Positions 3,442 through 38,105 of a DNA stretch of 38,105 bases are shown one piece after another. How positions within the stretch are numbered: the first letter of the stretch is position 1; the number at the start of each line of letters is the position of its first letter. The position numbers were made by a program, and so were the translations under genes. The stretch spans positions 1-38,105 of the forward strand of contig QFNF01000031.1 of the NCBI GenBank assembly GCA_003240755.1. The letters are read 5' to 3'. Source of the DNA: Sphingomonas hengshuiensis. Its GTDB lineage: Bacteria; Pseudomonadota; Alphaproteobacteria; Sphingomonadales; Sphingomonadaceae. Below the pieces are notes generated by a model. That model was given only the letters and a program-made list of their open reading frames with translations, was not told where the DNA came from and made no database searches.

Positions 3442-3446
3442 GATCC

Positions 3447-5447: not shown

Positions 5448-5458
5448 GATTGCTTGTC

Positions 5459-6610: not shown

Positions 6611-6643
6611 GGCCGCGCCCTATGCCTGTCGATGCTGCACTGC

Positions 6644-6664: not shown

Positions 6665-6671
6665 CCCGCGT

Positions 6672-6700
6672 TTGGTGCATTGCGATAACGGGCGCATATT
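6672..6700 (+). promoter_or_regulatory. Possible sigma70-type promoter for the MFS gene
   Basis: TTGGTG at 6672-6677 and CATATT at 6695-6700 are separated by 17 bases. Each matches the consensus only in part. They lie 44 bases upstream of the MFS ATG and just downstream of the palindrome at 6644-6664. This is a motif reading only, with no transcript evidence. Confidence 0.3.
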
Positions 6701-6743
6701 CAGTCTTACCCGCGCGTCCAATCGCGCAACGCTTGGAGTCCCT

Positions 6744-8078
6744 ATGGCCGAGGCCTTCGTCCATTCCCGCGAGATCGAGGCCGACGCCCGGGCCATCAAC
6801 ACCTCCGATACGCGTGAGGTGAACGTCCAGTCCGAGGAGATCGCGATCGGCGTCATCATCGGGCGTACGTCGGAATTCTTCGACTTCTTCGTGTACGCGA
6901 TCGCATCGGTGATCGTGTTTCCCCAGTTGATGTTCCCCTATGTCGACCGGCTGACGGGTACGCTCTATTCGTTCGCGCTGTTTCCGCTCGCGTTCTTCGC
7001 GCGGCCGTTCGGCACGCTGTTGTTCATGTGGATCGACCGGCGGCATGGCCGCGGGACCAAGTTGACCATCGCGCTGTTCCTGCTCGGCACCGCCACGGTG
7101 GCGATGGGCTTCCTGCCCGGATATGCGCAGGTCGGCGCATGGTCGGCGATCCTGCTGGCCGGTCTGCGCATCCTGCAGGGCATTGCGCTTGGTGGTGCAT
7201 GGGACGGGCTCGCCTCGCTGCTGGCGCTGAACGTGCCGCAGGATCGGCGTGGCTGGTACGCGATGATCCCCCAGCTCGGGGCCCCGCTCGGCCTGATGGT
7301 GGCAAGCGCCCTGTTCGCGTTCTTCACCGCCTATATGAGTGCCGAGGATTTCATCGCCTGGGGCTGGCGCTATCCGTTCTTCGTCGCATTCGCGCTGAAC
7401 GTCGTGGCGCTGTTCGCGCGGCTGCGCATCGTCGTGACGCCCGAATATACCAAGCTGTTCGAGAATCGCGAGTTGAAGGCGTCGCCCGTGCTCTCGACGG
7501 TCGGTCGCGAATGGCGGACGATCGCGATCGGCGCGCTGGTGCCGCTGGCCAGCTTTGCGCTGTTCCACATGGTGACGGTGTTCCCGCTGTCGTGGATCCT
7601 GCTGCGCACCGAGCAGCCGATCGAGCGTTTCCTGTGGATCGAGACCGCCTGCGCCATCTTCTTCATCTTCGCGATCCTCATATCGGGCGTGCTGGCCGAC
7701 CAGGTCGGGCGGCGGACGCTGCTGGGCATCGGCGCGATCGCCATCGCGCTGTTCTCCGGGCTCGCGCCGCTGCTGCTCAACAGCGGTGACGCGGGCGAGA
7801 TCGCGTTCATGATTACCGGCTTCATCCTGCTGGGCCTGTCGTTCGGCCAGTCGTCGGGCACCGTCGCAGCGAACTTCGCCAAGGATTCGCGCTATACCGG
7901 TGCCGCCCTGACATCGGACCTCGCCTGGCTGTTCGGTGCGGGCTTCGCGCCGTTCGTCGCCCTCGCGCTTGCCGACCGGCTGGGACTGTTCGCATCGGGC
8001 CTGTACCTGTTGTCCGGCGCGATCGGCACGCTGGCGGCGCTGGCGCTCAACAAGGAACTGGCACGGCGGCTCGACTGA
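6744..8078 (+). CDS. MFS transporter, metabolite:H+ symporter-like
   Basis: A 444-residue major facilitator superfamily protein with about 12 hydrophobic helices. Family signs are IGRTSEFFDFFVYAIAS in helix 1 (like the GxxxExFDFxxY of the metabolite:H+ symporter, ProP/KgtP-like branch), FFARPFGTLLFMWIDRRHGRG before helix 3 (the loop 2-3 signature), and LADQVGRRTLL in the second half. The substrate cannot be told from sequence; organic acids or compatible solutes are typical of the branch. I chose the ATG at 6744 because GGAG at 6735-6738 lies at good spacing, and the N-terminus from there is normal for the family. It is divergent from cyoA, and the protease gene follows after 8 bases. Confidence 0.85.
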   Translation: MAEAFVHSREIEADARAINTSDTREVNVQSEEIAIGVIIGRTSEFFDFFVYAIASVIVFPQLMFPYVDRLTGTLYSFALFPLAFFARPFGTLLFMWIDRRHGRGTKLTIALFLLGTATVAMGFLPGYAQVGAWSAILLAGLRILQGIALGGAWDGLASLLALNVPQDRRGWYAMIPQLGAPLGLMVASALFAFFTAYMSAEDFIAWGWRYPFFVAFALNVVALFARLRIVVTPEYTKLFENRELKASPVLSTVGREWRTIAIGALVPLASFALFHMVTVFPLSWILLRTEQPIERFLWIETACAIFFIFAILISGVLADQVGRRTLLGIGAIAIALFSGLAPLLLNSGDAGEIAFMITGFILLGLSFGQSSGTVAANFAKDSRYTGAALTSDLAWLFGAGFAPFVALALADRLGLFASGLYLLSGAIGTLAALALNKELARRLD

Positions 8079-8086
8079 GCTTTTCC

Positions 8087-9340
8087 GTGTTGCGCCACGC
8101 GGTGGCGGCGCTTGCGCTGGTGGCGGGAACCCCGACCATTGCGCAGGACGCCGCCACCGTCGTTTCGGGCGAGGCGGCACTGGCGCAGGATGCCGCCGAG
8201 GTGGCGCGGGTGCGCGGGATCGATACCGCTGCCGCATTGCGGTTGCTCAGGGCGCAGGCGGCAAGCGTCGCTGCCACCGAATGGGTCGAGGGGCGGTATC
8301 GCGACCGGCTCTCCGGCATCTCGATCGAGCGTGACGGTACGGTCGCCGTTTTGCTGACCGGCCAGCGACCGGTCGCCGATGGCGAGGTGCGCGACGGCGA
8401 TATCGTCGTGCCGATACGGTTTCGTACCGGCGCCGCGGCGACGCGGACGGAAATGCTCGACGCGATCGCGAAATATCAGGCGACGATCCGCGCGATGCTG
8501 GTGCGTCCGCCGGCGATGGGGGTCGATGCGCGGCGGGGCGAGCTCGTGGTGCTGATCGGCGGAGGCGATGCGGCGGGCGATACCACGGCGCTGCGGCGAC
8601 GGATCGAGGACATGACCGGCGTTCCGGTGCGGATCGCGACGACCGGCCGACCCGATCTGGATCTGGCGGGGGAAGTCGTCGGCGGGTCGCGGCTGATCGG
8701 CCCCGACCCGACCACCGGCCGGCGCTATTTCTGCACGACCGGCTATGTCGTGACCGACGGCGTGCAGACCGGCGTCGTGACCGCGGCGCATTGTCCCGAT
8801 ACGCTGGAGCATGTTGCCAGGAACGGCGCGCGGACGCCGCTGACCTTTATCGGGCAATGGGGCTGGGGGTTCCACGACGTACAGGTCAATACCAGTCCCG
8901 CCGCCACGTTGCCGCTGTTCCATCCCGATGCGGCGCGCGCCGTGTTGCGCCCGGTCGAGGCGCAGCGCAGCCGGGCCGGGACGCGGGTGGGCGACATGGT
9001 GTGCCACCGGGGCGAAAGCAGCGGCTATAGCTGTGCCGAGGTCGAGATGGTCGACTTCGCGCCATCGGGCGACCTGTGCGGCGGGCCGTGCCTGCCGACC
9101 TGGGTCGCGGTGGCGGGGCCGGGATGCCGCGGCGGCGACAGCGGCGGGCCGGTGTTCATCGGGACGACGGCGGTGGGGATTTTGAAGGGCGGGAGTTATC
9201 GGCCCGACGGGTCCTGCGTGTCCTATTATTATATGTCGCTCGATTACCTGCCGGACGGATGGCGGCTGGTGCGGTCGACGCCGTCGGTGCCGGAGGATCG
9301 CGACGCGGTCCAGCCGGCGGCCATGTCCGCAGGCCCATGA
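8087..9340 (+). CDS. Secreted trypsin-like serine protease with a prodomain-like N-terminus
   Basis: A 417-residue S1-family serine protease. The triad can be placed at His235 (VTAAHC), Asp264 (GFHDVQV) and Ser352 (GDSGGPVF). Several Cys (206, 236, 306, 316, 331, 335, 347) could form disulfides. Residues 1-20 look like a signal peptide (AVAALALVAGTPTIAQ). Between it and the catalytic domain are about 180 residues, including a stretch at 143-190 (GVDARRGELVVLIGG, then GVPVRIATTGRPDLDL) that resembles the pro-region of alpha-lytic protease/streptogrisin enzymes. It is probably made as a zymogen and exported. The start is a GTG 8 bases after the MFS stop with a weak ribosome site, so it may be coupled to that gene. 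Substrate unknown. Confidence 0.85.
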   Translation: MLRHAVAALALVAGTPTIAQDAATVVSGEAALAQDAAEVARVRGIDTAAALRLLRAQAASVAATEWVEGRYRDRLSGISIERDGTVAVLLTGQRPVADGEVRDGDIVVPIRFRTGAAATRTEMLDAIAKYQATIRAMLVRPPAMGVDARRGELVVLIGGGDAAGDTTALRRRIEDMTGVPVRIATTGRPDLDLAGEVVGGSRLIGPDPTTGRRYFCTTGYVVTDGVQTGVVTAAHCPDTLEHVARNGARTPLTFIGQWGWGFHDVQVNTSPAATLPLFHPDAARAVLRPVEAQRSRAGTRVGDMVCHRGESSGYSCAEVEMVDFAPSGDLCGGPCLPTWVAVAGPGCRGGDSGGPVFIGTTAVGILKGGSYRPDGSCVSYYYMSLDYLPDGWRLVRSTPSVPEDRDAVQPAAMSAGP

Positions 9341-9446
9341 CGAACATGGCCGGATTCCGTTTCGTCGCGGCAACGGCGTCGGCACGATACGCACTTCACC
9401 GCGACCCGGCCTTCACAGGAACGCCGGCCGCCCCCAATTCGTCACC

Positions 9447-10160
9447 ATGACGCCTGCCATTCCCGCCGCCACGCTGATCCTGTTACGCGATCGTGCCGAG
9501 GGTCCGCCCGACATCCTGATGGTGGAACGTGCGGCGACGATGGCCTTTGCCGGCGGGGCGCTGGTATTTCCCGGCGGGCGGATCGACCCCGGCGACGAAG
9601 CGTTGGCGCTGGCGATGGGCGATGGTGATCTGGCACCGCGACTGGCCGCGATCCGCGAGACGATCGAGGAGGCGGGGATCGCGATCGGCGTGGCCGGCGA
9701 CATCGGCACGTTGCGCGACAGGCTTGCGCAGGGGGTTCCGATCGGCGCGCTGGGGCCGGTCGATCCGTCGCCGTTGATCCCCTATGCCCGCTGGCGGCCG
9801 GAACATGTGCCGGTGCGTGTGTTCGATACCTGGTTCTTCGTCGCGCGGCTGCCCGACGATGCGCCCGCGGCGATCGTCGATGCGACCGAGAATGTACGGA
9901 CGTTATGGACCACGGCGAGGGACGCGCTGGCGGCGGCGGACCGGGGTGATGCGGCATTGCTGTTCCCGACGCGGCGCGTGCTGGAGCGGTTGGCGCAGCA
10001 TGACGATGTCGCCGCGGTGCTGGCCGATGCGCGGGCATGGCCGGTGCGGACGATTACGCCATGGGTCGAGCGGCGCGGCGAGGGCGACTGGATCTGCATC
10101 CCCGACGATCTGGGCTATCCGGTGACGGGCGAACCGGCGACGCGTGCGGTGCGCGGGTGA
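9447..10160 (+). CDS. NUDIX hydrolase (NUDT7/NUDT19-like)
   Basis: A 237-residue NUDIX protein. FPGGRIDPGDE followed by RETIEEAGIAI at about 72-82 supplies the NUDIX helix, but an insertion separates the leading GG from REx2EE. That spacing is typical of the NUDT19/RP2-like branch, some of whose members cleave CoA or acyl-CoA pyrophosphates. The C-terminal half (PVRVFDTWFFVARLP, then LFPTRRVLERLA) also resembles that branch. The real substrate is unknown. No strong Shine-Dalgarno precedes the ATG at 9447. The stop overlaps the GTG start of the next gene (GTGA), so the two are likely co-translated. Confidence 0.85.
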   Translation: MTPAIPAATLILLRDRAEGPPDILMVERAATMAFAGGALVFPGGRIDPGDEALALAMGDGDLAPRLAAIRETIEEAGIAIGVAGDIGTLRDRLAQGVPIGALGPVDPSPLIPYARWRPEHVPVRVFDTWFFVARLPDDAPAAIVDATENVRTLWTTARDALAAADRGDAALLFPTRRVLERLAQHDDVAAVLADARAWPVRTITPWVERRGEGDWICIPDDLGYPVTGEPATRAVRG

Positions 10161-10894
10161 GGGCGCTGTCGGCCGGCATCCGCACCCTGGTCTGGCTGGC
10201 GATCCTCGCCGGGATTGCGTTTGCGGTCTATGCCTTTACCCGCAGCAGGCCGCAGGACGTGCCGTGGACGCCGCTGGACCTGTCGCAGCCGGTCGGCATG
10301 TTCACCCGCAGCAAGATCGGCGATCTGCGCGGCGACTTTGCCGGGTGCCGGGCGCTGCTCGACGCGGCGGGGGTCCGCTATACCGCGCTGCCGCCGCGCG
10401 ACGGGACAGGGCAGTGCGGCTATGACGACGCGGTGCGGCTGCGCGGGGGCGGATCGCGGACGATCGATATCACGCCGGACGTCGGCGTGTCGTGCCGCGT
10501 GGCGACGGCGATGGCGCTATGGGAATGGCAGGTGGTGCAACCGGCGGCACAGAAGCATTTCGGCCAGGCGGTGGCGCGCATCCAGAATTTCGGCAGCTAT
10601 AATTGCCGGCGACTGTACGGGCGCGATACCGGCGCGTTCAGCGAACATGCGACCGCCAACGCGCTCGACATCGCCGCCTTCGTGCTAAGCGATGGCCGCC
10701 GGATCAGCGTCGTCGGCGACTGGACCGCAGGGGAGGGGCAGGACGATGCCGCAAAGGCTGCATTCCTGCGCGAGGTGCGCGACGGGGCATGCGGCGTCTT
10801 CTCGACCGTGCTGTCGCCCGATTACAACGCCGCGCACCGCGACCATTTTCATTTCGACCAGGCGGCGCGGGGCTTCGGCGGGGCCTGTCGCTGA
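10157..10894 (+). CDS. Extensin-like family protein, probable metal-dependent envelope hydrolase
   Basis: A 245-residue protein with one N-terminal membrane anchor (about 11-27) and a periplasmic domain of the 'extensin-like C-terminal' family (PF06904). The name is misleading. SEHATANALD (His164, Asp171) and HRDHFHFD (His227, His230, His232) are the HxxxxxxD and HxxHxH patterns that bind zinc in M15 peptidases such as VanX and VanY. Six Cys (64, 87, 113, 150, 212, 244) suggest disulfides and an extracytoplasmic site. A role in trimming peptidoglycan peptides is an inference. I chose the GTG at 10157 because it overlaps the NUDIX stop; the upstream reading has no signal-like start. Confidence 0.8.
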   Translation: MRALSAGIRTLVWLAILAGIAFAVYAFTRSRPQDVPWTPLDLSQPVGMFTRSKIGDLRGDFAGCRALLDAAGVRYTALPPRDGTGQCGYDDAVRLRGGGSRTIDITPDVGVSCRVATAMALWEWQVVQPAAQKHFGQAVARIQNFGSYNCRRLYGRDTGAFSEHATANALDIAAFVLSDGRRISVVGDWTAGEGQDDAAKAAFLREVRDGACGVFSTVLSPDYNAAHRDHFHFDQAARGFGGACR

Positions 10895-10906
10895 CCCCGC
10901 CGGAGC

Positions 10907-11458
10907 TCAGTGCATCGGGGCGCCGGCTTCGACCTTTTCCACCCATGCGGGGTAGAAGGCCGGTTGCCGCATCGACCAGCCCGAAGCGGTCGCTGCCGCC
11001 TCGCTGAGCGACTGCAGCAGCTTGCGGCGCAGTTCCGGATGGAGGTGCGGCAGCGCGGCCGATGCGCAGAAGGCGGCGGGCAGCCACGGCCGCGCCTCTG
11101 CGCCGACCAGCCGTTCGTACAGAAAGCGATAGGCCCCGAACGTGGTCAGCCGCCCCTGGCCCAGATCGAACGCCGTCACCTGCAGCAGCGGGGTCATGAA
11201 CGGTTCGATCGCGTCGAGCCCGCTATCGTCGGGAATGCACGCGCGAATATCGGGCAGGCGGTCATAGACGCGCGCCTGGGCGCGGATGCTGGCTGCCTCC
11301 ACCACGTCGCGCGACCAGCGGCGCATCGCGTCGTCACGGTCGAGCCCGATGTCGAGCGCGCGCCGGATATAGCGCTGCGTCGCTGCCGAAAAGGTTGCGA
11401 ACTCCTTCATTTCCGACAGCGTCATCGCGCCTTCCGCCGGTCGCCGTGCAATCGCCAT
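10907..11458 (-). CDS. Conserved hypothetical protein
   Basis: A 183-residue soluble protein that I do not recognise. It is mainly helical and rich in Ala, Arg and Leu, with no signal peptide or membrane segment. Landmarks are FATFSAATQRYIRRALDIGLDRDDAMRRWSRD near the start and QSLSEAAATASGW and YPAWVEKVEA near the end. I chose the ATG at 11458 because GGGGAG lies nine bases upstream; an upstream Met at 11566 has no ribosome site and would give a poorly structured leader. It converges on the extensin-like gene with only 12 bases between. Function unknown. Confidence 0.6.
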   Translation of the reverse strand: MAIARRPAEGAMTLSEMKEFATFSAATQRYIRRALDIGLDRDDAMRRWSRDVVEAASIRAQARVYDRLPDIRACIPDDSGLDAIEPFMTPLLQVTAFDLGQGRLTTFGAYRFLYERLVGAEARPWLPAAFCASAALPHLHPELRRKLLQSLSEAAATASGWSMRQPAFYPAWVEKVEAGAPMH

Positions 11459-18349: not shown

Positions 18350-20020
18350 TTACCTGCAGGTCGTGCCTTCCCCCGGATCGAGATCGAGGCAACGACCGTC
18401 GATCTCGTTCCTGGGAACGGGCAGGTGGATCGTGGCTGCCAGCGTCGGCAGGATATCGACCGTTTCCACGCCGAACGGCTCCTCGAACCCGCCCTGTCCC
18501 TTGCGCCAGAAGAGAATGGGCACCCGGCGGTCATAGTCCCAGAAGCTGCCATGCGTCGCCACGGCGCTGCCGACCACCGGATGCGGCAGGGTGAGCACGC
18601 GCGGTTTCATCGCGACCAGCAGGTCGCCCGAGCGCGGCGGGTAGTAGGAGGCGCGTGCACGTTCGATCAGCGACCAGGTTTCGGGCGGGGTGCCCGGCAC
18701 GGTCGTCGCCATGATCTGCGCGCGGGTGAACACCGCCTGCGTCTGCGGATGGGCCGTGAAGATCGCGATCGCCTCGCGCTCCACCGCCGCCTTCTGCGCC
18801 GGGGTCAGCCCGATGTCGTACCACACATCGCCATTGACCCCGCCGAACAGGACCGGGCCGGCAATGCCGAGCTTCTGCCCGATCGCCTTGCCGACACCTT
18901 CGACCGTCAGTTCGGCGTCCTGCCGGACCGCGTCGGGAACGGCGTGGTGGGCGAGGCGTTCGCTGGCGTCGCTGCCGCCATGGTCGGCGGTCAGCACGAC
19001 CTGATAATCCACGCCGGTAGCGTCGAGCACCTTGAAGAATTCGCCGAGGCTCTGGTCGAGCGAGGTCAGTTGCAGGCACATCTCGCTGCCTTCGGTGCCA
19101 TAGCCGTGCCCGACATAATCGGTCGCCGATGCGCCGATCGAGATGATATCGGTCTGCGGTCCCTGACCCAGCTTCATGTCCTGAATCAGTCCGGCGGCGA
19201 GCGCCAGGACGGCGGCGTCATATTCCGGAGAGCGGCGGAAGCCCGCGACGTCGCCGGCCGCGCGCGCGAAGCGGCCGGTGCCGATCGTCTTGTCCCCGAC
19301 ACGGACCGCGCGCGCGAGTGGCTGGCAGAAGGTCGGGAGCGTCATCGCCGGCTGCGCGGTCGCGATCTGCCTGGCGACGGCGGCATTGGCGCGGGCGACG
19401 ACGGGGGGCATCCTGCGCCCGGCATAGCTGGTGAAGCCGTCCTTGCCGAACCACCACAGTTCGTCGACCTTGTGCCCGCCCATCATCACCGCCGCGCGGT
19501 CCTTGCCCGCGACCGAGACGACGCGGGTGCGCGGATCGGCGGCCTTCATCCGCTCGCCCAGCGTCGGCACCATCAGGTGCGCGTCGGAGACGGTATAGTC
19601 CTTGAAGGTCGAACCCGCGACGCGTTCGTCCTCGGCGCAATAGACCTTGTGGTCGGGGCGGGCGGTGCTGCGCTGGTCGATCCAGTCATTGGCGATGATG
19701 CCGGTGCGCGACGGGCGCGATCCGGTGAGGATCGTTGAATGGCCCGGACAGGTTTCGGTCGCGGCGTGGCTCTGATAGCCGGACGGGAACACCGCGCCCT
19801 GCATCAACCGCGCGAAGCCGCTGGTGAAGCGCGCGCGATATTCGGCGAACAGGTCGGCCGAGAACTGGTCGACCGAGATCGCGACGATCAGCCTGGGCGG
19901 CGTCGCCGGATAGGTCGGCGGCACCGGCACGTCGGCGGGCACGCCGACCGGCGCGGCGGTCTGGGCAAGGGCGGGAGTGGCGGACGCCAGCAACAGCGCG
20001 GCGAGGGAAACGAGACGCAT
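18350..20020 (-). CDS. phoK: PhoK-like (Sphingomonas-type) secreted alkaline phosphatase
   Basis: A 556-residue exported phosphatase, close in length to PhoK/SPAP of Sphingomonas (559). After a signal peptide (ends about residue 20), metal and active-site residues match that family: Asp51 (ISVDQFS), the nucleophile Thr90 in the TETCPGHS region, Asn111 (ANDW), Lys173 and Arg175 (AGKDRA), Asp and His of TDYVGHG, the DH pair of TADHGG, and His of ATHGSFWDYD. It releases phosphate from organic esters in the periplasm or outside the cell. No obvious Pho box was found. It is divergent from the DsbD-like gene with only 52 bases between the starts. Confidence 0.88.
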   Translation of the reverse strand: MRLVSLAALLLASATPALAQTAAPVGVPADVPVPPTYPATPPRLIVAISVDQFSADLFAEYRARFTSGFARLMQGAVFPSGYQSHAATETCPGHSTILTGSRPSRTGIIANDWIDQRSTARPDHKVYCAEDERVAGSTFKDYTVSDAHLMVPTLGERMKAADPRTRVVSVAGKDRAAVMMGGHKVDELWWFGKDGFTSYAGRRMPPVVARANAAVARQIATAQPAMTLPTFCQPLARAVRVGDKTIGTGRFARAAGDVAGFRRSPEYDAAVLALAAGLIQDMKLGQGPQTDIISIGASATDYVGHGYGTEGSEMCLQLTSLDQSLGEFFKVLDATGVDYQVVLTADHGGSDASERLAHHAVPDAVRQDAELTVEGVGKAIGQKLGIAGPVLFGGVNGDVWYDIGLTPAQKAAVEREAIAIFTAHPQTQAVFTRAQIMATTVPGTPPETWSLIERARASYYPPRSGDLLVAMKPRVLTLPHPVVGSAVATHGSFWDYDRRVPILFWRKGQGGFEEPFGVETVDILPTLAATIHLPVPRNEIDGRCLDLDPGEGTTCR

Positions 20021-20072
20021 CGGATACTCCGCGGACGGTGCATCCGTCCCGAAACTCCGCTACTCCGCGTCT

Positions 20073-22091
20073 ATGACAGCGGCAAGAACACTATGGCGTC
20101 GAATCGTCCTTCTCGCCGTACTGCTGTGCGCATCGTGGCCGGCGGCGGCACAGGTGCCGGGGCAGCGCCACGTCCAGATGCGGATCGTGGCGGAAAGCGA
20201 TACGCCGGCGGCGGGCGGGCGCGTGGCGATCGCGCTGGTATCGGTGCCCGATGCCGGCTGGCACGGCTATTGGCAGAACCCTGGCGCGGTCGGGACGCAG
20301 CCCCGGCTCGACTGGACGCTGCCGACGGGCGCACGCATCGGCGATCTGCGCTATCCGGTGCCCGAGCGGCTGATGGTCGCGGGCATCACGAACTATGTCT
20401 ATGAACGGCCGTGGACGATCCTGACCGAGCTGCAACTGCCCGCCGGGCTGGCGCGGGGCAGTATGGTGCCGGTGCGGCTGGCGATCGATTATCTGGTCTG
20501 CACCCGCGAGATCTGCGTACCGGAAAAGGCGGTATTGTCGACCGACCTGACCATCGGCGACGGTGCGATCATGCCCGGGCGCCGTGCCGAGTTCGATGGC
20601 TGGCGACGCGCGCTGCCACGGGCTCTGGGATCGCCTGCAGTGTTCCAGGCGGGCGAACCGCTGCGGCTGCGCGTGCCGTTTCCGGCGACCCGGGCGATCG
20701 GCGATCCGTACTTCTTCGCGCTGACCGAGAATGCGGTCGATTACGATGCGCCGCAGACGATCCGGCGCGACGGCGACGCGATCGTCATCGAGACGAAGGG
20801 GACGGGCAGGCCGCCGCGGATCGAGGGGGTGCTGGCGACGGGACCGGGGCAGGGCTTTACGATCCGCGCCACCCCCGGCGCCGTCGCCGCGCCGGCGGAA
20901 CCCGCGCCGATCCGGGCGGCGTTGCTGGCCTTTGCCGGGGCGCTGCTCGGCGGGTTGTTGCTCAACGTCATGCCGTGCGTCTTCCCGATCCTGAGCCTGA
21001 AGGCGCTCAGCCTTGCCCGTTCGGGCGAGTCGGCGGCGCATGCGCGGGCGGAGGGGTTCGCCTATACCGCCGGTGCGGTTGCCACCTGCATCGCGCTGGG
21101 CGGCGTGCTGCTGGCGATCCGTGCGGCAGGGGTCGCGGCGGGATGGGCGTTCCAGTTGACCGATCCGCGCATCGTGCTGTTGCTGCTGGTGCTGACCGGG
21201 GCGATCGCACTGAACCTTGCGGGGCTGTTCGAGCTGCCGACGCCGCAGGTCGGCAGCCGCAACGGACGCGGCGGGGCATTCGCGACCGGTGCGCTGGCGG
21301 CGTTCGTCGCGACGCCGTGCACCGGTCCGTTCATGGGAGCGGCGCTGGGATCGGCACTGATGCTGCCGCCGGTCGCGGCGATGGCGGTGTTCGCCGGGCT
21401 GGGGTTGGGGCTGGCGCTGCCGTTCCTGCTGCTCGGTTTCGTACCGGCACTGCGCCGTCGCCTGCCAAGGCCGGGCGCATGGATGGACACGCTCCGGAAA
21501 GCATTGTCGGTCCCGATGTTCCTGACCGCGCTGGCGCTGGCATGGATATTGGGGCGGCAGGCGGGGGTCGATGGCATGGCGTTCGGGCTTGGCGCGCTGC
21601 TGCTCGCGGGGCTGGGGCTGTGGTGGACCGGGCGGCGGCAGTTGCGCGGACGCGATCGGGCGTGGTGGCCGGCGATCGCCGCACTGCCGCTGGCGATCGG
21701 CGCCGCGATGCTGGTCGAGCGCGCCCCGCCGGCCGGGACGGGTTCGACCGCCATGGCCGGCGCGGAACCGTTCAGCGAGGCGCGCCTGGCCGCACTGCGC
21801 GCCGAAGGCAGGCCGGTCTTTGCGTATTTCACCGCCGACTGGTGCCTGACGTGCAAGGTCAACGAACGCGCCGCGATCGAGACGCGGGCGGTGGCGGCGG
21901 CATTCGGCAAGGGCGGGGTCAAGATACTGGTCGGCGACTGGACCGACGGCGATCCGGCGCTGGGCCGCTTCATCGAGGCGCACAACCGCGCCGGGGTGCC
22001 GCTATACCTCTATTATGCGCCGGGCCGGAGCGAGCCGCGGGTGCTGCCGCAGGTGCTGACCCCGGCGACGCTGACCGATCTGGTATCCTGA
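20073..22091 (+). CDS. DsbD/ScsB-like thiol-disulfide transmembrane reductase
   Basis: A 672-residue protein with a signal peptide (1-26), an N-terminal periplasmic beta domain (about 30-270, with CTREIC), an eight-helix membrane domain (about 278-560) and a C-terminal thioredoxin domain. Redox Cys can be placed: about 302 in NVMPCVFPI, about 414 in TPCTGPFMG, and the CxxC at 591-594 in DWCLTCK. This is the layout of DsbD and its ScsB-like relatives, which pass electrons from cytoplasmic thioredoxin to periplasmic partners. Targets could include the exported MsrB or Cys-rich periplasmic proteins, but this is speculative. I chose the ATG at 20073, where the signal peptide starts; no strong ribosome site is visible. 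Confidence 0.88.
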   Translation: MTAARTLWRRIVLLAVLLCASWPAAAQVPGQRHVQMRIVAESDTPAAGGRVAIALVSVPDAGWHGYWQNPGAVGTQPRLDWTLPTGARIGDLRYPVPERLMVAGITNYVYERPWTILTELQLPAGLARGSMVPVRLAIDYLVCTREICVPEKAVLSTDLTIGDGAIMPGRRAEFDGWRRALPRALGSPAVFQAGEPLRLRVPFPATRAIGDPYFFALTENAVDYDAPQTIRRDGDAIVIETKGTGRPPRIEGVLATGPGQGFTIRATPGAVAAPAEPAPIRAALLAFAGALLGGLLLNVMPCVFPILSLKALSLARSGESAAHARAEGFAYTAGAVATCIALGGVLLAIRAAGVAAGWAFQLTDPRIVLLLLVLTGAIALNLAGLFELPTPQVGSRNGRGGAFATGALAAFVATPCTGPFMGAALGSALMLPPVAAMAVFAGLGLGLALPFLLLGFVPALRRRLPRPGAWMDTLRKALSVPMFLTALALAWILGRQAGVDGMAFGLGALLLAGLGLWWTGRRQLRGRDRAWWPAIAALPLAIGAAMLVERAPPAGTGSTAMAGAEPFSEARLAALRAEGRPVFAYFTADWCLTCKVNERAAIETRAVAAAFGKGGVKILVGDWTDGDPALGRFIEAHNRAGVPLYLYYAPGRSEPRVLPQVLTPATLTDLVS

Positions 22092-22170: not shown

Positions 22171-23652
22171 ATGGGGCAGGCATTCGACGAAATCTGGGGA
22201 CATGGCGGGCCGGATCATCCGCGCACCGACCTTGCGGCACTGGCACGATGGATGCGCGGGGTGCCGGCCCACGAGTTGAAACGCCGCTTGCAATCCGCCG
22301 AAGCGACCTTTCGCCAGTTGGGCATCACCTTCGCGGTCTATGGCGACAGCGAGGCGGCGGAGCGGATCATCCCGTTCGACATCGTACCGCGCGTGTTCAT
22401 GGCCGACGAATGGGCGCGGCTGTCCAAGGGGCTGATCCAGCGGACCCAGGCGATCAACGCGTTCCTCGACGATATCTATGGCGAACGGCGGATCCTGAAG
22501 GCAGGGGTGCTGCCGCCCGACCTGATCTTCGGCAACGCGCAGTTCCGTCCCGAGATCGCCGGCATCCGCCCGCCACACGGGGTATGGGCGCATATCTGCG
22601 GCATCGACCTGGTCCGGACCGGGCCCGACGAATTCTATGTGCTGGAGGACAATGCGCGCACGCCGTCGGGCGTGTCGTACATGCTGGAGAATCGCGAGGC
22701 GATGATCCGGCTGTGCCCCGAACTGTTCCGCAATTTCCGCGTGGCGGCGGTCGACAGCTATCCCGACCGGCTGCTGGAAACGATGCGGTCGGTGGCGCCG
22801 CCGGGCGCGGGGGCGCATCCGACCTGCGTCGTGCTGACGCCCGGCCATTTCAACTCGGCCTATTACGAACACAGCTTCCTTGCCGATTCTATGGGCGTCG
22901 AACTGGTCGAGCCGGCCGACCTGCTGGTCGACGACGACGTGGTGTGGATGCAGACGATCGCCGGACGGGTGCGGGTCGACGTCATCTATCGCCGGATAGA
23001 TGACGATTTCATCGATCCGGTGGTGTTCCGGCCCGAATCGCTGCTCGGCGTGCCGGGGCTGATCGCGGCGTATCGGGCGGGCAATGTCGCGCTGGTCAAC
23101 GCACCGGGCAACGGCATCGCCGACGACAAGGCGATCTACAGCTACATGCCGGAAATCGTGCGCTTCTATTCCGAAGCCGAACCGCTGCTGCCCAATGTCG
23201 AAACGTGGCGCTGCCGCGAGCCGGCGGCGTTGCGATATGTGCTCGACCACCTCGACGAAGTGGTGGTGAAGCTGGTCGACGGGTCGGGCGGCTATGGCAT
23301 GCTGGTCGGGCCGACCGCGTCGAAACAGGAGATCGAGGATTTCCGCCGCGCGCTGATCGCCGAGCCGCAGCGCTATATCGCGCAGCCCACGCTGGCGCTT
23401 TCCACCGTGCCGACGCTGACCGAAGCGGGGCTGGCGCCCCGTCACGTCGATTTCCGCCCGTTCGTTCTGACCGGCGCGGAGGTGGTGCAGGTCGTGCCCG
23501 GCGGGCTGACCCGCGTGGCGCTGAAGGAAGGGTCGCTCGTCGTCAATTCCAGCCAGGGCGGCGGAACCAAGGACAGTTTCGTGCTGATGGACGACGCCCC
23601 GGTGCAGTCGCAGACGATGGGCGGCATGACCCAGCGCCAGGGGGGGCGCTGA
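22171..23652 (+). CDS. Circularly permuted type 2 ATP-grasp protein
   Basis: A 493-residue protein of the circularly permuted ATP-grasp group (DUF404/DUF407, CP_ATPgrasp). Recognisable stretches are FDEIWGHGG near the start, LEDNARTPSGVSYMLENR (about 152-170), TPGHFNSAYYEHSFLA, NAPGNGIADDKAIYSYMPEI, and the glycine-rich KLVDGSGGYGMLVGP (about 370). ATP-grasp enzymes activate a carboxylate as acyl phosphate and join it to an amine; here a peptide or amide product is predicted, substrate unknown. GGAGG at 22162-22166 gives a strong ribosome site. It is the first gene of a compact triad: one base separates it from the alpha-E gene. Confidence 0.9.
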   Translation: MGQAFDEIWGHGGPDHPRTDLAALARWMRGVPAHELKRRLQSAEATFRQLGITFAVYGDSEAAERIIPFDIVPRVFMADEWARLSKGLIQRTQAINAFLDDIYGERRILKAGVLPPDLIFGNAQFRPEIAGIRPPHGVWAHICGIDLVRTGPDEFYVLEDNARTPSGVSYMLENREAMIRLCPELFRNFRVAAVDSYPDRLLETMRSVAPPGAGAHPTCVVLTPGHFNSAYYEHSFLADSMGVELVEPADLLVDDDVVWMQTIAGRVRVDVIYRRIDDDFIDPVVFRPESLLGVPGLIAAYRAGNVALVNAPGNGIADDKAIYSYMPEIVRFYSEAEPLLPNVETWRCREPAALRYVLDHLDEVVVKLVDGSGGYGMLVGPTASKQEIEDFRRALIAEPQRYIAQPTLALSTVPTLTEAGLAPRHVDFRPFVLTGAEVVQVVPGGLTRVALKEGSLVVNSSQGGGTKDSFVLMDDAPVQSQTMGGMTQRQGGR

Positions 23653-23653
23653 C

Positions 23654-24592
23654 ATGGCGATGCTCTCGCGCACCGCCGCATCGCTCTACTGGCTGGGCCG
23701 CTATGTCGAGCGTGCCGATTTCCTCGCCCGGCTGGTCGAGGCGACGGTGCGACTGGATGCGCTGTCGTCGCGCCCGGCAGGCGACGCGGCATGGGCCAGC
23801 GCGCTGGCGGTCAGCTATACCGAGGAAAGTTTCGCCGCGACGGAACAGGAAATCGGGCAGGCATCGGTCGCGCGCTTCCTGACCTGCGACCGCAGCCATC
23901 CGGGATCGATCCTGTGGTGCCTCGATGCCGCGCGCAACAATGCCAAGGCGGTGCGTACCGCGCTGACCCGCGATGCATGGACGGCGATCAACCGCGCGTG
24001 GATCGTCTTCAACGCGCCGCAGGGCGGGGATGGCGAGGACATCCTCAATCTGGTCGAGGCGATCAAGGCCGAGGCGCGCGGGTTCGAAGGCGCGGTGCAG
24101 CGCATGATGAAGAACGAGGCGACGTGGTTCGTCCAGCTTGGCGCCGCGATCGAGCGCGCCGACAACACCGCGCGGCTGATCGACGTCAAATATCACCTGC
24201 TGCTGCCCGAGGGCGAGCGGATCGGCGGCGCGATCGACCGCGATCAATGGACCACCATCCTGCAGACCGTGTCCGCCGTCACCGCCTATCGCTGGCTGTA
24301 CAGCGAGGGGCTGAAACCGGCCAACGTCATCGAATTGCTGCTGTCGCGCGGAGAGGTGCCGCGCAGTCTGGCGGCGTGTGTCGACGAAACGGTCGAAATG
24401 CTCAACATGCTCGGCAAACGCACCGGTTTCCAGGGTGAGGCCGACCGCATGGCCCGTGCCCGGCTGGCACGGATGCAGAAGACCCGCGCGCACGAGGTCA
24501 TCGTCAGCGGGCTGCACGAATATCTGACTGCCTTCATCCGGGAGAATGCGATGCTCGACGCCGCGATCGCCCGCCAGTTCCGCTTCATCTGA
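23654..24592 (+). CDS. Alpha-E domain protein
   Basis: A 312-residue all-helical protein of the alpha-E family (PF04168), which covers nearly its whole length. Typical features are the start MLSRTAASLYWLGRYVERADFLARLVEA, AARNNAKAVRTALTRDAW, QLGAAIERADNTARLIDVKYHLLLP, and ending IRENAMLDAAIARQFRF. The family takes its name from conserved Glu residues (YVERAD, IERADN) on helices and always lies near circularly permuted ATP-grasp and transglutaminase-like genes. Its role is not established. The ATG follows the ATP-grasp stop by one base, and its own stop overlaps the next start (TGATG). Confidence 0.9.
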   Translation: MAMLSRTAASLYWLGRYVERADFLARLVEATVRLDALSSRPAGDAAWASALAVSYTEESFAATEQEIGQASVARFLTCDRSHPGSILWCLDAARNNAKAVRTALTRDAWTAINRAWIVFNAPQGGDGEDILNLVEAIKAEARGFEGAVQRMMKNEATWFVQLGAAIERADNTARLIDVKYHLLLPEGERIGGAIDRDQWTTILQTVSAVTAYRWLYSEGLKPANVIELLLSRGEVPRSLAACVDETVEMLNMLGKRTGFQGEADRMARARLARMQKTRAHEVIVSGLHEYLTAFIRENAMLDAAIARQFRFI

Positions 24593-25389
24593 TGCGGCTG
24601 TCGGTCCACCATGAGACGCGGTATCGCTTCACCGAACCGCAGGCGCGCATCGTCCAGTTGCTCCGTCTCTTTCCCGGCGACACCAGCCATCAGACGGTAG
24701 TGAACTGGCGGATCGACGTGGATTGCGACGCACGGCTGCGCGACAGCATCGACGGTTACGGCAACGTCACGCGGATGCTGTATGCCGAGGGGCCGGTCGA
24801 GACGCTGCTGCTGACGGTATCGGGCGAGGCGCTGCTGACCGAGGACCACGGCCCGATCGGGGGCACGGACGAACCGTTTCCGCCCGAGCTGTTCCGGCGG
24901 GTGACGGCGCTGACCCGTGCCGACGACGCGATCGACGCGCTGGGGCAGGGTGCCGACCTGTCCGCGATGACGGCGCTGGCGGCGGCGATCCATGCGCGCT
25001 GGCCGCTCGACCGGCGTCCGGCGCCCGCCATCCGTCCGGCGGCGGAGGCGGCGATGGCGGACCGGTTGAGCCCGCGTGACATGGCGCAGATATTCGTTGC
25101 CGCCGCGCGGGCGCGCGGCGTGCCGGCGCGCTATGTGTCGGGATACAGCCTGTCGGGGGATGACGAGCGTCGCGCCGCCGCGCCACATGCCTGGGCCGAG
25201 GCGCATGTCGCCGGCGGCTGGTATGCGTTCGATCCGGCGATCGGCGGGCGATCGGGGCTGGACCATGTGCGCGTCGCCGTGGCGCTGGACGCGGCCGGTG
25301 CGGCGCCGATCGCCGGCGTGCGGATGGGCCCCGGCGACGAGGCGCTGGACGTCGATGTCGACGTGCGGGTCGAGGGCGGGGCGGATTAG
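24592..25389 (+). CDS. Transglutaminase-like protein lacking the catalytic Cys (probable pseudoenzyme)
   Basis: A 265-residue protein with the bacterial transglutaminase N-terminal domain (starts MRLSVHHETRYRF) and a transglutaminase-like core. The core should read GVCxDxAH at the catalytic Cys; here the matching stretch is LSPRDMAQIF, with Pro161 in place of Cys and Gln in place of the following His. The other triad members remain: His199 (PHAWAE) and Asp214 (FDPAIG), and the ARGVPARYVSGY landmark is intact. The only Cys in the protein is far away, in DVDCDAR. There is no frameshift or stop, so the gene is kept. It is the third gene of the triad and overlaps alpha-E by one base. A binding or scaffold role is an inference. 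Confidence 0.85.
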   Translation: MRLSVHHETRYRFTEPQARIVQLLRLFPGDTSHQTVVNWRIDVDCDARLRDSIDGYGNVTRMLYAEGPVETLLLTVSGEALLTEDHGPIGGTDEPFPPELFRRVTALTRADDAIDALGQGADLSAMTALAAAIHARWPLDRRPAPAIRPAAEAAMADRLSPRDMAQIFVAAARARGVPARYVSGYSLSGDDERRAAAPHAWAEAHVAGGWYAFDPAIGGRSGLDHVRVAVALDAAGAAPIAGVRMGPGDEALDVDVDVRVEGGAD

Positions 25390-28987: not shown

Positions 28988-29125
28988 AATCCTCCCCAAG
29001 CTCGCTTGGGGAGGGGGACCAGCCGCAGGCTGGTGGAGGGGGACGACGCGCCAGCGTCGGCTGCGCCGCCGCCCCCTCCACCATGCTTCGCGTGGTCCCC
29101 CTCCCCATCGCAGATGGGGAGGATT
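28988..29125. repeat. 138-bp palindromic intergenic repeat between yebC and ruvC
   Basis: The element is framed by 11-base inverted ends, AATCCTCCCCA (28988-28998) and TGGGGAGGATT (29115-29125). Inside are further palindromes: an 11-bp stem at 28991-29001/29004-29014, ACCAGCC-gca-GGCTGGT at 29018-29034, GGAGGGGG paired with CCCCCTCC, ACCATGC-ttc-GCGTGGT with a wobble, and a final hairpin ending in GGGGAGG. The modular palindrome-in-palindrome layout is typical of mobile REP/BIME-like or MITE-like intergenic elements in sphingomonads. No transposase gene is inside. Its right arm lies against ruvC. Confidence 0.85.
29116..29122 (+). promoter_or_regulatory. ruvC ribosome binding site inside the repeat arm
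   Basis: GGGGAGG in the right arm of the repeat lies eight bases before the TTG at 29131, where the conserved RuvC sequence starts. There is no other Shine-Dalgarno nearby. If this arm pairs with the left arm or its own hairpin partner in the mRNA, the ribosome site would be hidden. Confidence 0.6.
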
Positions 29126-29130
29126 TGCGT

Positions 29131-29640
29131 TTGCTGATCCTCGGGCTCGATCCCGGCCTTGGCACCACCGGCTGGGGCGTGATCCGCGCCGACGGCAACC
29201 GGCTGAGCCATGTCGCCAACGGCCAGATCCGTACCGACCCGTCGATGCAGCTCCCGCGCCGCCTCGCGCTGCTGTTCGGCGCCCTGGGGGAGGTGATCCG
29301 CACCGAACGCCCCGACGGTGCGGCGGTCGAGGAGGTGCTGGGCAACAGCAACGCGCAATCGACGCTCAAGCTGGGGCAGGCACGCGGCGTCGTCCTGCTT
29401 TCCGCCTCGACGGCGGGTCTGGCGATCGGGGAATATCATCCGAGCATCGTCAAGAAGGCGGTGGTGGGCACCGGCGGCGCGGACAAGAAACAGATCCAAG
29501 CCATGGTCGGCCACCTGCTGCCCGGCGTGAAGCTGTCGGGTCCGGACGCCGCCGATGCGCTGGCGGTCGCAATCACCCACGCCCATCACCTCGCCAGCGC
29601 GCACGCACGGGCGCGGCGATCGACGGGAATCGGGGCTTGA
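29131..29640 (+). CDS. ruvC: Crossover junction endodeoxyribonuclease RuvC
   Basis: A 169-residue RuvC, close to E. coli (173). It resolves Holliday junctions by paired cuts, acting with RuvAB. Acidic active-site residues are in LGLDPG (start), VEEVLGN (middle) and [11 protein letters not shown] (end). [15 protein letters not shown] and [19 protein letters not shown] are family hallmarks. I chose the TTG at 29131, which gives an N-terminus of normal length with GGGGAGG eight bases upstream. An ATG at 29083 would start within the palindromic repeat and add 16 residues unlike the family. It is the first of ruvC-ruvA-ruvB. Confidence 0.93.
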
Positions 29641-29655
29641 TCGTCGCTGCGACCA

Positions 29656-29735
29656 TATCCCCGCGCAGGCGGGGACCCGGAGCCGGACAGAACCGGCGTC
29701 GATTGTCGCCCTGGATCCCGGCCTGCGCGGGGATA
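29656..29735. repeat. Inverted-repeat element between ruvC and ruvA
   Basis: Perfect 15-base arms, at 29656-29670 (TATCCCCGCGCAGGC) and 29721-29735, are separated by 50 bases. The inner ends carry further pairing (GGCGGGGACCC against GGATCCCGGCC). This CCCCGC-GCAGG-type element resembles a GC-rich repeat that recurs between genes in sphingomonads. It fills most of the 118-bp ruvC-ruvA gap and differs in sequence from the repeat upstream of ruvC. Confidence 0.7.
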
Positions 29736-29758
29736 CGGCTTATCGGGGGAAGTCACCC

Positions 29759-30361
29759 ATGATCGCCCATCTCAAAGGTACGCTGTCGGTTTCCGGCATC
29801 GACCATGCCGTCATCGACGTGAACGGCGTCGGCTATCTGGTCGGCGCCTCTTCGCGGACGTTGCAGGCGCTGGGGCCGGTCGGCGGCAGCGTCACGATCC
29901 ATACCGAGATGCTGGTCGCCGAGGATTTCATCCGCCTCGTGGGTTTCGCGAGCGCGGACGAGCGCGACTGGTTCCGCCTGCTGACCGGCGTGCAGGGCGT
30001 CGGCGCGCGCGTGGCGCTGGGCATCCTGTCCACCCTGTCGCCCGAGGAAGTCCGCACCGCGATCGCGCGCGGCGACAAGGCCAGCATCGCGCGCGCCAAC
30101 GGCGTCGGCCCGAAACTGGCGCAGCGCATCGCGATGGAGCTGAAGGACAAGGTCGGCGGCATCGCCATCGGTCCCGGCGCGGTCGCGCCGGCGGCGGCCG
30201 AGGGTGGTATCGAGGGCGACGCGGTATCGGCACTGCTCAACCTCGGCTTCCGCCCTGCCGAGGCGGCAACGGCGGTCGGCAAGGCGGCGGAGGAACTGGG
30301 GCCGGGCGTCACCCTCGACGCGCTGGTGCGATTGGCGCTGAGGAAGGCGTCGCGGAACTGA
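29759..30361 (+). CDS. ruvA: Holliday junction DNA helicase subunit RuvA
   Basis: A 200-residue RuvA, the usual length. It begins [11 protein letters not shown] with the OB-fold domain, and the sequence [28 protein letters not shown] (about 62-90) holds the first helix-hairpin-helix. [22 protein letters not shown] is the second. The C-terminal domain ([19 protein letters not shown]) contacts RuvB. RuvA binds the four-way junction and loads RuvB rings for branch migration. The ATG at 29759 follows a GGGGGAAG ribosome site. It lies 118 bases after ruvC, with an inverted repeat between. Confidence 0.95.
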
Positions 30362-30419
30362 TCCCTCTGGTCGTGGACGGGACCTTTCCTCCCTTCCCGC
30401 GAACGTCTAGGGAACGCCA

Positions 30420-31439
30420 GTGACCGACGACCGCATGACCACTCCCCTTCGCCGTCCCGAGGACGTCGATGCAGCCCTTCGCCCGAAGGCGCTCGACGAG
30501 TTCGTCGGGCAGCAGGCGGCGCGCGAGAATCTGCGGGTGTTCATCGATGCCGCGCGCGGGCGGGGGGACGTGCTCGACCATGTCCTGTTCTTCGGGCCGC
30601 CCGGCCTCGGCAAGACGACGCTGGCGCAGATCGTCGCGCGCGAAATGGGGGTGGGGTTCCGCGCCACCTCCGGCCCGGTCATCGCCAAGTCGGGCGACCT
30701 TGCCGCGCTGCTGACCAATCTCGAGGATGGCGACGTGCTGTTCATCGACGAGATCCACCGGTTGAATCCGGCGGTCGAGGAGGTTCTCTACCCCGCGATG
30801 GAGGACCGCGCACTCGACCTGATGATCGGCGAGGGGCCTTCCGCGAGAAGCGTCCGGATCGACCTGCCGCGCTTCACGCTGGTCGGGGCGACGACGCGGC
30901 AGGGGCTGTTGACGACGCCGCTGCGCGACCGGTTCGGTATTCCGGTCCGCCTGCAATTCTACACCGTCGAGGAACTGACCCGCGTCGTCACCCGTGCCGC
31001 CGGGTTGCTGGGGCTGGGCATCGCCAGGGATGGCGCGACCGAGGTGGCGAAGCGCGCGCGCGGCACGCCGCGCATCGCCGGGCGGCTGCTGCGCCGCGTG
31101 CGCGACTTCGCCAATGTCGCCGGGGTCGAGATCGTCGACGCGCGCACGGCGGATGCCGCGCTCAACCGGCTGGAGGTCGATGCCAAGGGGTTGGACGCGA
31201 TGGACCGGCGGTACCTGACGATGATCGCCGATGTGTATCGTGGCGGACCGGTGGGGGTGGAGACGCTGGCCGCCGGCCTGTCCGAACCGCGCGACACGAT
31301 CGAGGAGGTGATCGAGCCCTATCTGATCCAGATCGGCATGATCGCTCGCACCGCGCGGGGCCGCTGTCTCAACGCCGGTGGGTGGAAGCATCTGGGGTTC
31401 GAGCCGCCTGCGGGGTCGCAGGACGGGCTGTTCGATTGA
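30420..31439 (+). CDS. ruvB: Holliday junction DNA helicase RuvB
   Basis: A 339-residue AAA+ motor. Walker A is GPPGLGKTT, Walker B is LFIDEIHRL, sensor 1 is in [18 protein letters not shown] and the arginine finger region RDRFG follows. The C-terminal winged-helix domain ([31 protein letters not shown]) binds DNA. RuvB drives branch migration of Holliday junctions with RuvA. The start is the GTG at 30420 (an ATG five codons later, MTTPLRRP, is possible). Its stop overlaps the ribosome site (GAGGGA) of the small gene that follows. Confidence 0.96.
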
Positions 31440-36480: not shown

Positions 36481-38105
36481 TTACGCCTCGGCAGGTGCCT
36501 TTGTCTTGCCGCCCTTGCGCGGCTTCTTTGGCGCGGCCGGCGTCATCTCGAACGCCAGTGCATTGTCCTTCAGCGTGACGTTCACCTCACCGCCATGGAC
36601 CAGCTTGCCGAACAACAGTTCCTCGGCCAGCGGTTGCTTGATCTTATCCTGGATCAGGCGGCCCATCGGACGTGCGCCATAGAGCTTGTCATAGCCCTTG
36701 TCGGTCAGCCACGTCTTCGCTTCCTCGTTCAGCCGGATATGGACGCCGCGGTCGGCCAGTTGCAGTTCGAGCTGCAGGATGAACTTGTCCACCACCCGCG
36801 CGACGACGTCAGGCGGCAGGTAGCCGAACGGCACGATCGCATCGAGCCGGTTGCGGAATTCGGGGGTGAAGAGCTTCTTCACCGCTTCTTCCTGCACGTC
36901 CTCGCGGTCGATCTGGCCGAAACCGATCGACTCCTTGGCCATGTCCGACGCGCCGGCATTGGTCGTCATGATGAGGATGACGTTGCGGAAATCGACGGTC
37001 TTGCCGTGGTGGTCGGTCAGCTTGCCATTGTCCATCACCTGCAACAGGATGTTGAACAGGTCGGGATGCGCCTTTTCGATCTCGTCGAGCAGCAGGACGC
37101 AATGCGGCTGCTGGTCGATCGCATCGGTCAGCAACCCGCCCTGGTCATAGCCGACATAGCCCGGCGGGGCACCGATCAGCCGGCTGACCGAATGGCGCTC
37201 CATATATTCGGACATGTCGAAGCGCTGCAGCGGGATGCCCATGATCTCCGACAATTGCCGCGCGACCTCGGTCTTGCCGACGCCGGTCGGGCCGGTGAAC
37301 AGATAGTTGCCGATCGGCTTGTCGGGATCGCGCAGCCCCGCGCGCGACAGCTTGATGGCCGAGGACAGCGCCCTGATCGCATCGTCCTGCCCGAACACCA
37401 CCCGTTTCAGGTCGAGTTCGAGATTGGCCAGCACCCGCGTATCGTCGGTCGACACGGTTTTCGGCGGGATGCGCGCCATCGTCGCGATCACCTGCTCGAT
37501 TTCCTTCGACGTGATCGTCTTCTTGCGCTTGGGCGCGGGTACCAGCATCTGCATCGCGCCGACTTCGTCGATCACGTCGATCGCCTTGTCGGGCAGCTTG
37601 CGGTCGTTGATGTAGCGCGCCGACAATTCTACCGCCGATTTGATCGAATCAGGGGTGTATTTCACCTTGTGGTGATCTTCGAACGCCGAGCGCAGGCCGG
37701 TGAGGATCTTGATCGTATCCTCGACCGAAGGCTCGTTCACGTCGATCTTCTGGAACCGGCGCAGCAGTGCGCGATCCTTTTCGAAGTGGTTGCGGAACTC
37801 CTTGTAGGTCGTCGAGCCGATGCAGCGAATCTGCCCGCCCGACAGCGCGGGCTTCAGGAGATTCGATGCGTCCATCGCCCCGCCGCTGGTCGCACCGGCA
37901 CCGATGACGGTGTGGATTTCGTCGATGAACAGAACCGCGTGCGGCAGCTTCTCCAGCTCGGTCACGACCTGTTTCAGCCGCTCCTCGAAATCGCCGCGAT
38001 AGCGGGTGCCCGCCAGCAGCGCGCCCATGTCGAGCGAATAGATGACCGCAGGCAGCAACACCTCGGGCACGTCGCCCTCGACGATCTTGCGCGCCAGACC
38101 TTCGG
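36481..38105 (-). CDS. clpA: ATP-dependent Clp protease ATP-binding subunit ClpA (5' end cut off)
   Basis: The last 541 residues of ClpA; the N-terminal domain and first Walker A lie beyond the right edge. The reading is open to the edge with EGLARKIVEGDVPEVL. Visible are the first AAA+ module (GTRYRGDFEERL, FIDEIHTVIGAGATSGGAMDA) and the second with Walker A (GPTGVGKTEVA), Walker B (LLLDEIEKAHP), sensor 1 (TTNAG) and the conserved MERHSVSRLIGAPPGYVGY. No long middle domain is present, which marks ClpA rather than ClpB. The sequence IGFG in KESIGFGQ could be the ClpP-docking loop. The C-terminus is Lys-rich (KKPRKGGKTKAPAEA). ClpA unfolds proteins for ClpP. Confidence 0.95.
   Translation of the reverse strand, partial: EGLARKIVEGDVPEVLLPAVIYSLDMGALLAGTRYRGDFEERLKQVVTELEKLPHAVLFIDEIHTVIGAGATSGGAMDASNLLKPALSGGQIRCIGSTTYKEFRNHFEKDRALLRRFQKIDVNEPSVEDTIKILTGLRSAFEDHHKVKYTPDSIKSAVELSARYINDRKLPDKAIDVIDEVGAMQMLVPAPKRKKTITSKEIEQVIATMARIPPKTVSTDDTRVLANLELDLKRVVFGQDDAIRALSSAIKLSRAGLRDPDKPIGNYLFTGPTGVGKTEVARQLSEIMGIPLQRFDMSEYMERHSVSRLIGAPPGYVGYDQGGLLTDAIDQQPHCVLLLDEIEKAHPDLFNILLQVMDNGKLTDHHGKTVDFRNVILIMTTNAGASDMAKESIGFGQIDREDVQEEAVKKLFTPEFRNRLDAIVPFGYLPPDVVARVVDKFILQLELQLADRGVHIRLNEEAKTWLTDKGYDKLYGARPMGRLIQDKIKQPLAEELLFGKLVHGGEVNVTLKDNALAFEMTPAAPKKPRKGGKTKAPAEA

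Follow-up and report, generated by a model that had tools for sequence, protein, structure and literature searches.

A transglutaminase-like protein without its catalytic cysteine, probably a pseudoenzyme, in an ATP-grasp/alpha-E gene triad of Sphingomonas

What role is left for a transglutaminase-like protein that has no nucleophile, in a gene unit predicted to form amide bonds? The question is raised by three adjoining genes in a 38,105-nucleotide stretch of Sphingomonas hengshuiensis DNA (contig QFNF01000031.1; the whole stretch is hereafter called the window), which encode a circularly permuted ATP-grasp protein, an alpha-E protein and a transglutaminase (TG)-like protein. The triad itself is already known: the three families occur together, usually with the proteasome-like protein Anbu (PMC5666114, PMC6376114; these and all other papers cited by PMC number are drawn on here through extracts). 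An established function of the Anbu/alpha-E/ATP-grasp/TG system was not found in the literature searched. The answer that we favour, and consider rather probable, is that the triad would be a ligase unit in which the TG-like protein is a pseudoenzyme subunit, a non-catalytic binder, with TG chemistry left to a paralogue at a second locus.

The triad and the missing nucleophile

An earlier sequence-only reading of the window had described three frames on the forward strand, spanning 22171..25389 and separated by a one-base gap and a one-base overlap, and this description was confirmed. The alpha-E gene starts one base after the ATP-grasp stop codon, and the ATG of the TG-like gene overlaps the alpha-E stop codon by one base. 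The genes and the codons at the three catalytic positions of the last one are:

22171-23652, forward strand: ATP-grasp gene (ATG at 22171, stop codon TGA at 23650-23652); 493 amino acids; predicted amide/peptide ligase, circularly permuted
23654-24592, forward strand: alpha-E gene (ATG at 23654); 312 amino acids, all-helical
24592-25389, forward strand: TG-like gene, transglutaminase fold (ATG at 24592); 265 amino acids, without the catalytic Cys
25072..25074, forward strand: codon CCG for Pro161, at the catalytic Cys position and followed by Arg162 (in alignments the Cys of GVCQD/CRDFA aligns with Pro161)
25186..25188, forward strand: codon for His199, at the catalytic His position, kept in 120/120 of the best homologues listed
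25231..25233, forward strand: codon for Asp214, at the catalytic Asp position, kept in 120/120 of the best homologues listed

In place of GVCQD the TG-like protein of the window reads L-S-P-R-D. A Cys at the nucleophile position was found in none of the 120 best homologues listed, the named ones among which are mostly Sphingomonas proteins, and it is absent from 57 of 60 genus loci; the expectation that the protein acts by its own chemistry is therefore not supported. The fold is another matter: Bact_transglu_N (60.7 bits, cut-off 27) and Transglut_core (PF01841; 50.1 bits, cut-off 23) are its sole Pfam matches, and an AlphaFold model of the Cys-less protein predicts a full, globular beta/alpha TG fold. 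Judged from its sequence, the TG-like protein is probably a pseudoenzyme and a non-enzymatic part of the unit.

Arg162, which follows the lost nucleophile, was considered as a new functional residue and rejected. All 120 homologues listed have it, but among the 91 Cys-less TGs it is found in 60 of the 65 from the Sphingomonas clade and in 7 of the other 26; Arg also follows the Cys in other TGs seen here and in 3isr of Cytophaga hutchinsonii, a "transglutaminase-like putative cysteine protease" which has the Cys of CRDFA where the window has Pro161.

The two partner proteins are clearly assigned. The ATP-grasp protein matches CP_ATPgrasp_2 (PF14403) over the entire profile (1-374 of 374; 544.7 bits, cut-off 32) and PF04174 (481.5 bits), and its residues 20-474 match the solved structure 3n6x in a phmmer search (6.1e-186). 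It looks intact: VLEDN (157-161), ADDKAIY (317-323), K367 and SGGYG (372-376) are invariant in a 5-sequence alignment. For a Yersinia relative, release of orthophosphate from ATP has been reported (PMC6376114). The alpha-E protein matches Alpha-E (PF04168; 263 bits, cut-off 20.8), with both ER motifs, E19-R20 and E167-R168, unchanged across 24 sequences; its AlphaFold model shows helices throughout (mean predicted local distance difference test score, pLDDT, 88.5), and the fold-relative searches made here found no clear fold relative. None of the three proteins matched an NCBIfam family. Of 23 genus loci compared (the window and L031-L052), 22 share the gene order and strand; the remaining one, L034, is truncated at the end of its contig. 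The sequence-only reading was right that the triad is a known association and a single unit, and its genes are inherited together.

Repeated cysteine loss and the second locus

To place the missing Cys in a wider context, we compared 200 alpha-E loci: the window, 22 same-genus and 2 same-order loci, 80 named loci (the best 80 of 594 found by ATP-grasp), 60 family loci and loci from 35 further genus genomes. The family loci came from 169 family genomes with a match and were chosen non-randomly, mostly by ATP-grasp score and contig size. Dropped from the set were two fragments of G037 (L055, L056) and three duplicates of longer-fetched loci (L213-L215), and G249 was excluded from the further genus genomes because of low completeness. 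Genome-wide statements below refer to the genomes of relatives of the window, not to its own. A TG was found beside alpha-E in 191 of the 200 loci, with the Cys in 100 and without it in 91. In the other nine there is none: L053 and L137 end right after alpha-E, in L169 a TG lies further off, and in others, such as L166, L118 and L122, the sequence continues. L118 and L122, from Roseomonas and Rhodovarius, carry ATP-grasp, alpha-E and Anbu genes without a detected TG between them.

Among the 191 TGs, the Cys and an adjacent Anbu occur together in 90 cases, the Cys without Anbu in 10, Anbu without the Cys in 16, and neither in 75. The 60 genus loci, window included, divide into 57 that are Cys-less without adjacent Anbu and 3 with both. 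The remark that no proteasome-like gene lies beside the triad was borne out, in that the Anbu profile found no match in the window. Nor is this gap peculiar to the window: a search with an Anbu alignment found Anbu anywhere in just 3 of 61 same-genus genomes, leaving 58 without it. PF00227, tried earlier as a detector, gave the G032 Anbu a weak score (24.4 bits) and failed to detect the one in G017, for which reason this alignment took its place. Outside Sphingomonas, Anbu directly follows the TG in many relatives; four genomes of two family genera (L251-L254) have Anbu apart from a standalone triad.

The history of these losses was read from a tree of ATP-grasp plus alpha-E (168 rows, 159 of them with a TG; quick method, LG+G4), in which the window's clade takes in named Sphingomonas loci; this placement and the names of the best TG homologues are the grounds on which the genus is taken here as Sphingomonas. 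The tree requires at least 12 changes of Cys state, with 10 independent pairs on supported branches. Within the Sphingomonas-type clade (39 rows; support by the SH-like approximate likelihood-ratio test, SH-aLRT, 98), the five outer rows have Anbu but no Cys, and the inner 34 rows (SH-aLRT 100) have neither; the Cys thus went first and Anbu later. Of the three genus exceptions with Cys and Anbu, the operons of G262 and G263 group with a Sphingobium locus and G113, apart from the native one, and that of G017 falls in the sister clade. Losses of the Cys elsewhere include loci of Methylobacterium, Bosea, Lichenifustis, Falsiroseomonas and Burkholderia.

Many of the relatives possess a second circularly permuted ATP-grasp locus, in which ATP-grasp and alpha-E are fused (open frames of ~800-990 amino acids in the genus) and followed by a TG of its own. 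Two alpha-E loci were found in 21 of 25 same-genus genomes, the nearest included, and the second ATP-grasp is 32-35% identical to that of the window (10 genus genomes). A strong match to the second-locus TG is present in 55 of 61 genus genomes; the six without one are G017, G262 and G263, the Cys/Anbu exceptions, and G004, G008 and G013, which have no alpha-E match. In all 54 that were examined of the 55 genomes with the second TG (G249 not included), the first locus is Cys-less. The same pattern holds across 129 loci, a set without the window or the partial loci L216-L245, with the second locus called from alpha-E count, TG match or ATP-grasp count (the last covering 50 of the 80 named loci): 54 are Cys-less with a second locus and none are Cys-less without one, while 28 have the Cys with a second locus and 47 without. 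Under a losses-only model, two-locus branches make up 37% of the at-risk branch length yet carry all 13 of the losses inferred (binomial P 2e-6). The second-locus TG retains GVCQD and its His in 30/30 genus regions (the 30 best of the 55 strong matches) and in 34/34 other regions, so that in the regions read the loss of the Cys is particular to the standalone triad. We regard the link between second locus and Cys loss as a good lead rather than proof, as it rests on few independent contrasts (3-4, all in the same direction).

Constraint on the Cys-less protein and its possible role

Selection was estimated as the ratio of nonsynonymous to synonymous substitution rates (dN/dS, Nei-Gojobori) in 10 close Cys-less pairs, two of which share L069, and 6 Cys-bearing pairs. 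In the Cys-less pairs the ratio was 0.035-0.236 for the TG, 0.009-0.140 for alpha-E and 0.016-0.125 for ATP-grasp; in the Cys-bearing pairs the TG ratio was 0.090-0.191. In these relatives the Cys-less TG is under continued constraint, with no visible relaxation after the loss of the Cys.

These data bear directly on the explanation that the TG gene of the triad is a functionless, decaying relic on its way to being lost. In 15 of 16 pairs its dN/dS exceeds that of both partner genes, whether the Cys is there or not; a TG is undetected in some relatives, among them the three loci named above, where sequence continues past alpha-E; and the catalytic His (L080, L156) or Asp (L103) has sometimes been lost as well. 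Against this, the ratios of Cys-less TGs are close to the range of Cys-bearing relatives, no stops occur inside the listed TG matches of the 35 further genus genomes, His and Asp are present in 65/65 Sphingomonas-clade Cys-less loci, and the position next to alpha-E is kept. We therefore consider decay unlikely. It is very unlikely that the gene is retained solely to support translational coupling or operon expression: its one-base overlap with alpha-E would fit such a role, but a gene at the end of the operon is dispensable for coupling the others, and the conservation of the cleft His and Asp goes beyond the upkeep of a reading frame.

One could also suppose that a nearby Ser or Thr, or a shifted Cys, has replaced the nucleophile and that the enzyme is active. 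Of the 120 homologues listed, 103 carry Thr or Ser at position 160 (Ser160 in the window) and 23 carry Ser at position 161; a Cys shifted by one position is present in 5 of the 91 Cys-less TGs (L156, L167, L175, L243 and L250), and Cys45 is frequent (110/120). No replacement is invariant, however, since position 160 may also be G, A or P and position 161 is mostly Pro or Ala, and we hold a swap to be highly improbable. Cys45 was rejected as a substitute because the model places it in the N-terminal beta region and 19 Cys-bearing TGs share it, so that it does not look compensatory. In three of the shifted cases (L156, L167, L175) the motif is GCSMD, with the Cys one residue early, and L156 has Gln for the catalytic His. 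That the triad is a standard active system, with a working transglutaminase or cysteine peptidase making or modifying peptides as in Anbu operons, is scarcely credible: Pfam scores above cut-off, public names and the retained His and Asp speak for it, and the absence of the nucleophile from the window and all 120 homologues listed speaks against it. The activity that is implied for Cys-less TGs by names used in databases, for example "transglutaminase-like putative cysteine protease", is probably wrong here, and such names call for caution.

In the reading that we prefer, the triad is a reduced version of the ATP-grasp/alpha-E/TG system, a ligase unit with a pseudoenzyme subunit. The ATP-grasp protein with its alpha-E partner would, as its family suggests, activate a carboxylate with ATP as an acyl phosphate and join it to an amine as an amide. 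The TG-like protein would form no thioester; since fold, His, Asp and surrounding cleft appear to have been kept by selection without the nucleophile, it would most likely bind a substrate, a product or a partner non-catalytically. The hydrolytic arm of the triad locus, first the TG Cys and then Anbu, was lost in Sphingomonas ancestry, and TG catalysis would persist at the second locus with its fusion protein and intact Cys-His-Asp TG. That second locus probably rendered the first-locus Cys dispensable. A more specific version, which we offer as a tentative possibility, is a split of work in two-locus genomes: the TG of the standalone triad may repeatedly have become a dedicated, non-catalytic subunit that binds or presents the substrate or product of the ligase and delivers it to the active TG of the fused locus, with ATP-grasp and alpha-E as the core and TG catalysis and Anbu as optional arms.

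Several observations weigh against this interpretation. When the second-locus link was put to a sign test on independent pairs, 3.6 pairs agreed, 0.0 disagreed and 6.4 showed no difference, short of significance (median p 0.125). The count of 13 losses assumes the losses-only model; unordered parsimony gives 5 losses and 7 gains. The 28 two-locus loci that still have the Cys show that a second locus is not sufficient for its loss. The link between absence of Anbu and absence of the Cys is strong in raw counts but not after phylogeny is taken into account (median p 0.625), and because of this value and the 16 Cys-less operons that keep an adjacent Anbu, loss of Anbu was rejected as the driver of Cys loss. 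The TG is the least conserved member of the triad, mostly 44-52% identical to that of the window within the genus as against 72-83% for ATP-grasp. Finally, the second locus was seen in relatives, from which we infer its presence in the window's own genome.

If the nucleophile has indeed been lost repeatedly while fold and cleft were selected, models that need TG chemistry at the triad locus would be wrong for whole lineages, and ligase and alpha-E would be the core of the system. Sphingomonas would then be a naturally occurring case of the ligase on its own, with neither Anbu nor TG chemistry at this locus, and the product might build up there. The pseudoenzyme nature of this operon's TG across Sphingomonas, the repeated loss of its Cys and the restriction of that loss, in the present sample, to genomes with a paralogous locus were not found in the open-licence literature, a search in which Iyer et al. 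2009 was not covered.

Neighbours, regulation and known systems

A search for conserved additional neighbours, as the sequence-only reading had proposed, yielded one gene upstream of the triad:

19977..22091, forward strand: DsbD-family gene (DsbD_N, DsbD_TM, Thioredoxin_7; the start codon is predicted)

A gene of this family precedes the triad in the same orientation, no more than 1 kb away, in 17 of 23 genus loci (window included), and DsbD-family matches occur in 7 of 9 named Sphingomonas loci as against 0 of 71 other named loci. By sequence it appears to be a conserved genus neighbour of the triad, and as a functional partner it is only a candidate. Pyruvate kinase and DUF1244 genes, which adjoin the triad in the window, recur in 1 of 22 other loci (L031) and are thus not part of the unit. 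Further genes of the window are ordinary neighbours, SURF1, COX1 and COX2 (1731-6610, reverse strand) and RuvC, RuvA and RuvB (29083-31439, forward strand), and a Clp-type AAA protein (36481-38070, reverse strand) reaches nearly to its end.

A scan for a sigma70-type promoter between 19800 and 25600 found none, with 0.4 expected; other promoter types lie outside this consensus. A sigma54-like site upstream of the ATP-grasp gene was found in none of the 22 genus loci scanned and in 1 of 3 other loci (L054), and sigma54 control was rejected for the genus. This differs from Burkholderia cenocepacia, where the NtrC/sigma54-dependent cluster I35_5080-5083, with DUF404/407, DUF403 and TG-like genes, is down in an ntrC mutant (PMC5491218). 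Anbu goes up in nitrogen-limited Pseudomonas putida and is unchanged under other conditions (PMC5666114). On the strength of these two cases, nitrogen limitation is the best physiological hint.

The B. cenocepacia cluster shares its gene families with the triad, and loci of two other Burkholderia species (L117, L123) have, like the window, a Cys-less TG (GTSRD). They differ from the window in that a large second TG directly follows it; in both loci, at ~6343-11409, next to the GTSRD protein comes a large one whose TG motif (GSCRD) is intact. Compared with the Anbu operon, the window has the same three families, contiguous and in the same order, an arrangement shared by 21 of the 22 other genus loci (all but the truncated L034). 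The window differs in lacking Anbu, for which no peptidase activity was detected, and in that its TG lacks the catalytic Cys; in Yersinia, Anbu showed no specific interaction with the proteins encoded beside it (PMC6376114). The second locus likewise shares the families and differs by its fused ligase and Cys-intact TG.

A further parallel is RloABC of Pseudomonas aeruginosa, in which an ATP-grasp protein is encoded in an operon with an inactive transglutaminase (PMC12239564). The Rlo TG is fused to seven transmembrane helices, whereas that of the window has 265 amino acids, a globular model and only TG domains; and the extract of that report compares the ATP-grasp protein with RimK, describes the peptidase as retropepsin-like and does not mention alpha-E. 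What the two systems have in common is the pairing of an ATP-grasp protein with an inactive TG, and RloABC provides a precedent for a catalytically dead TG that is functional.

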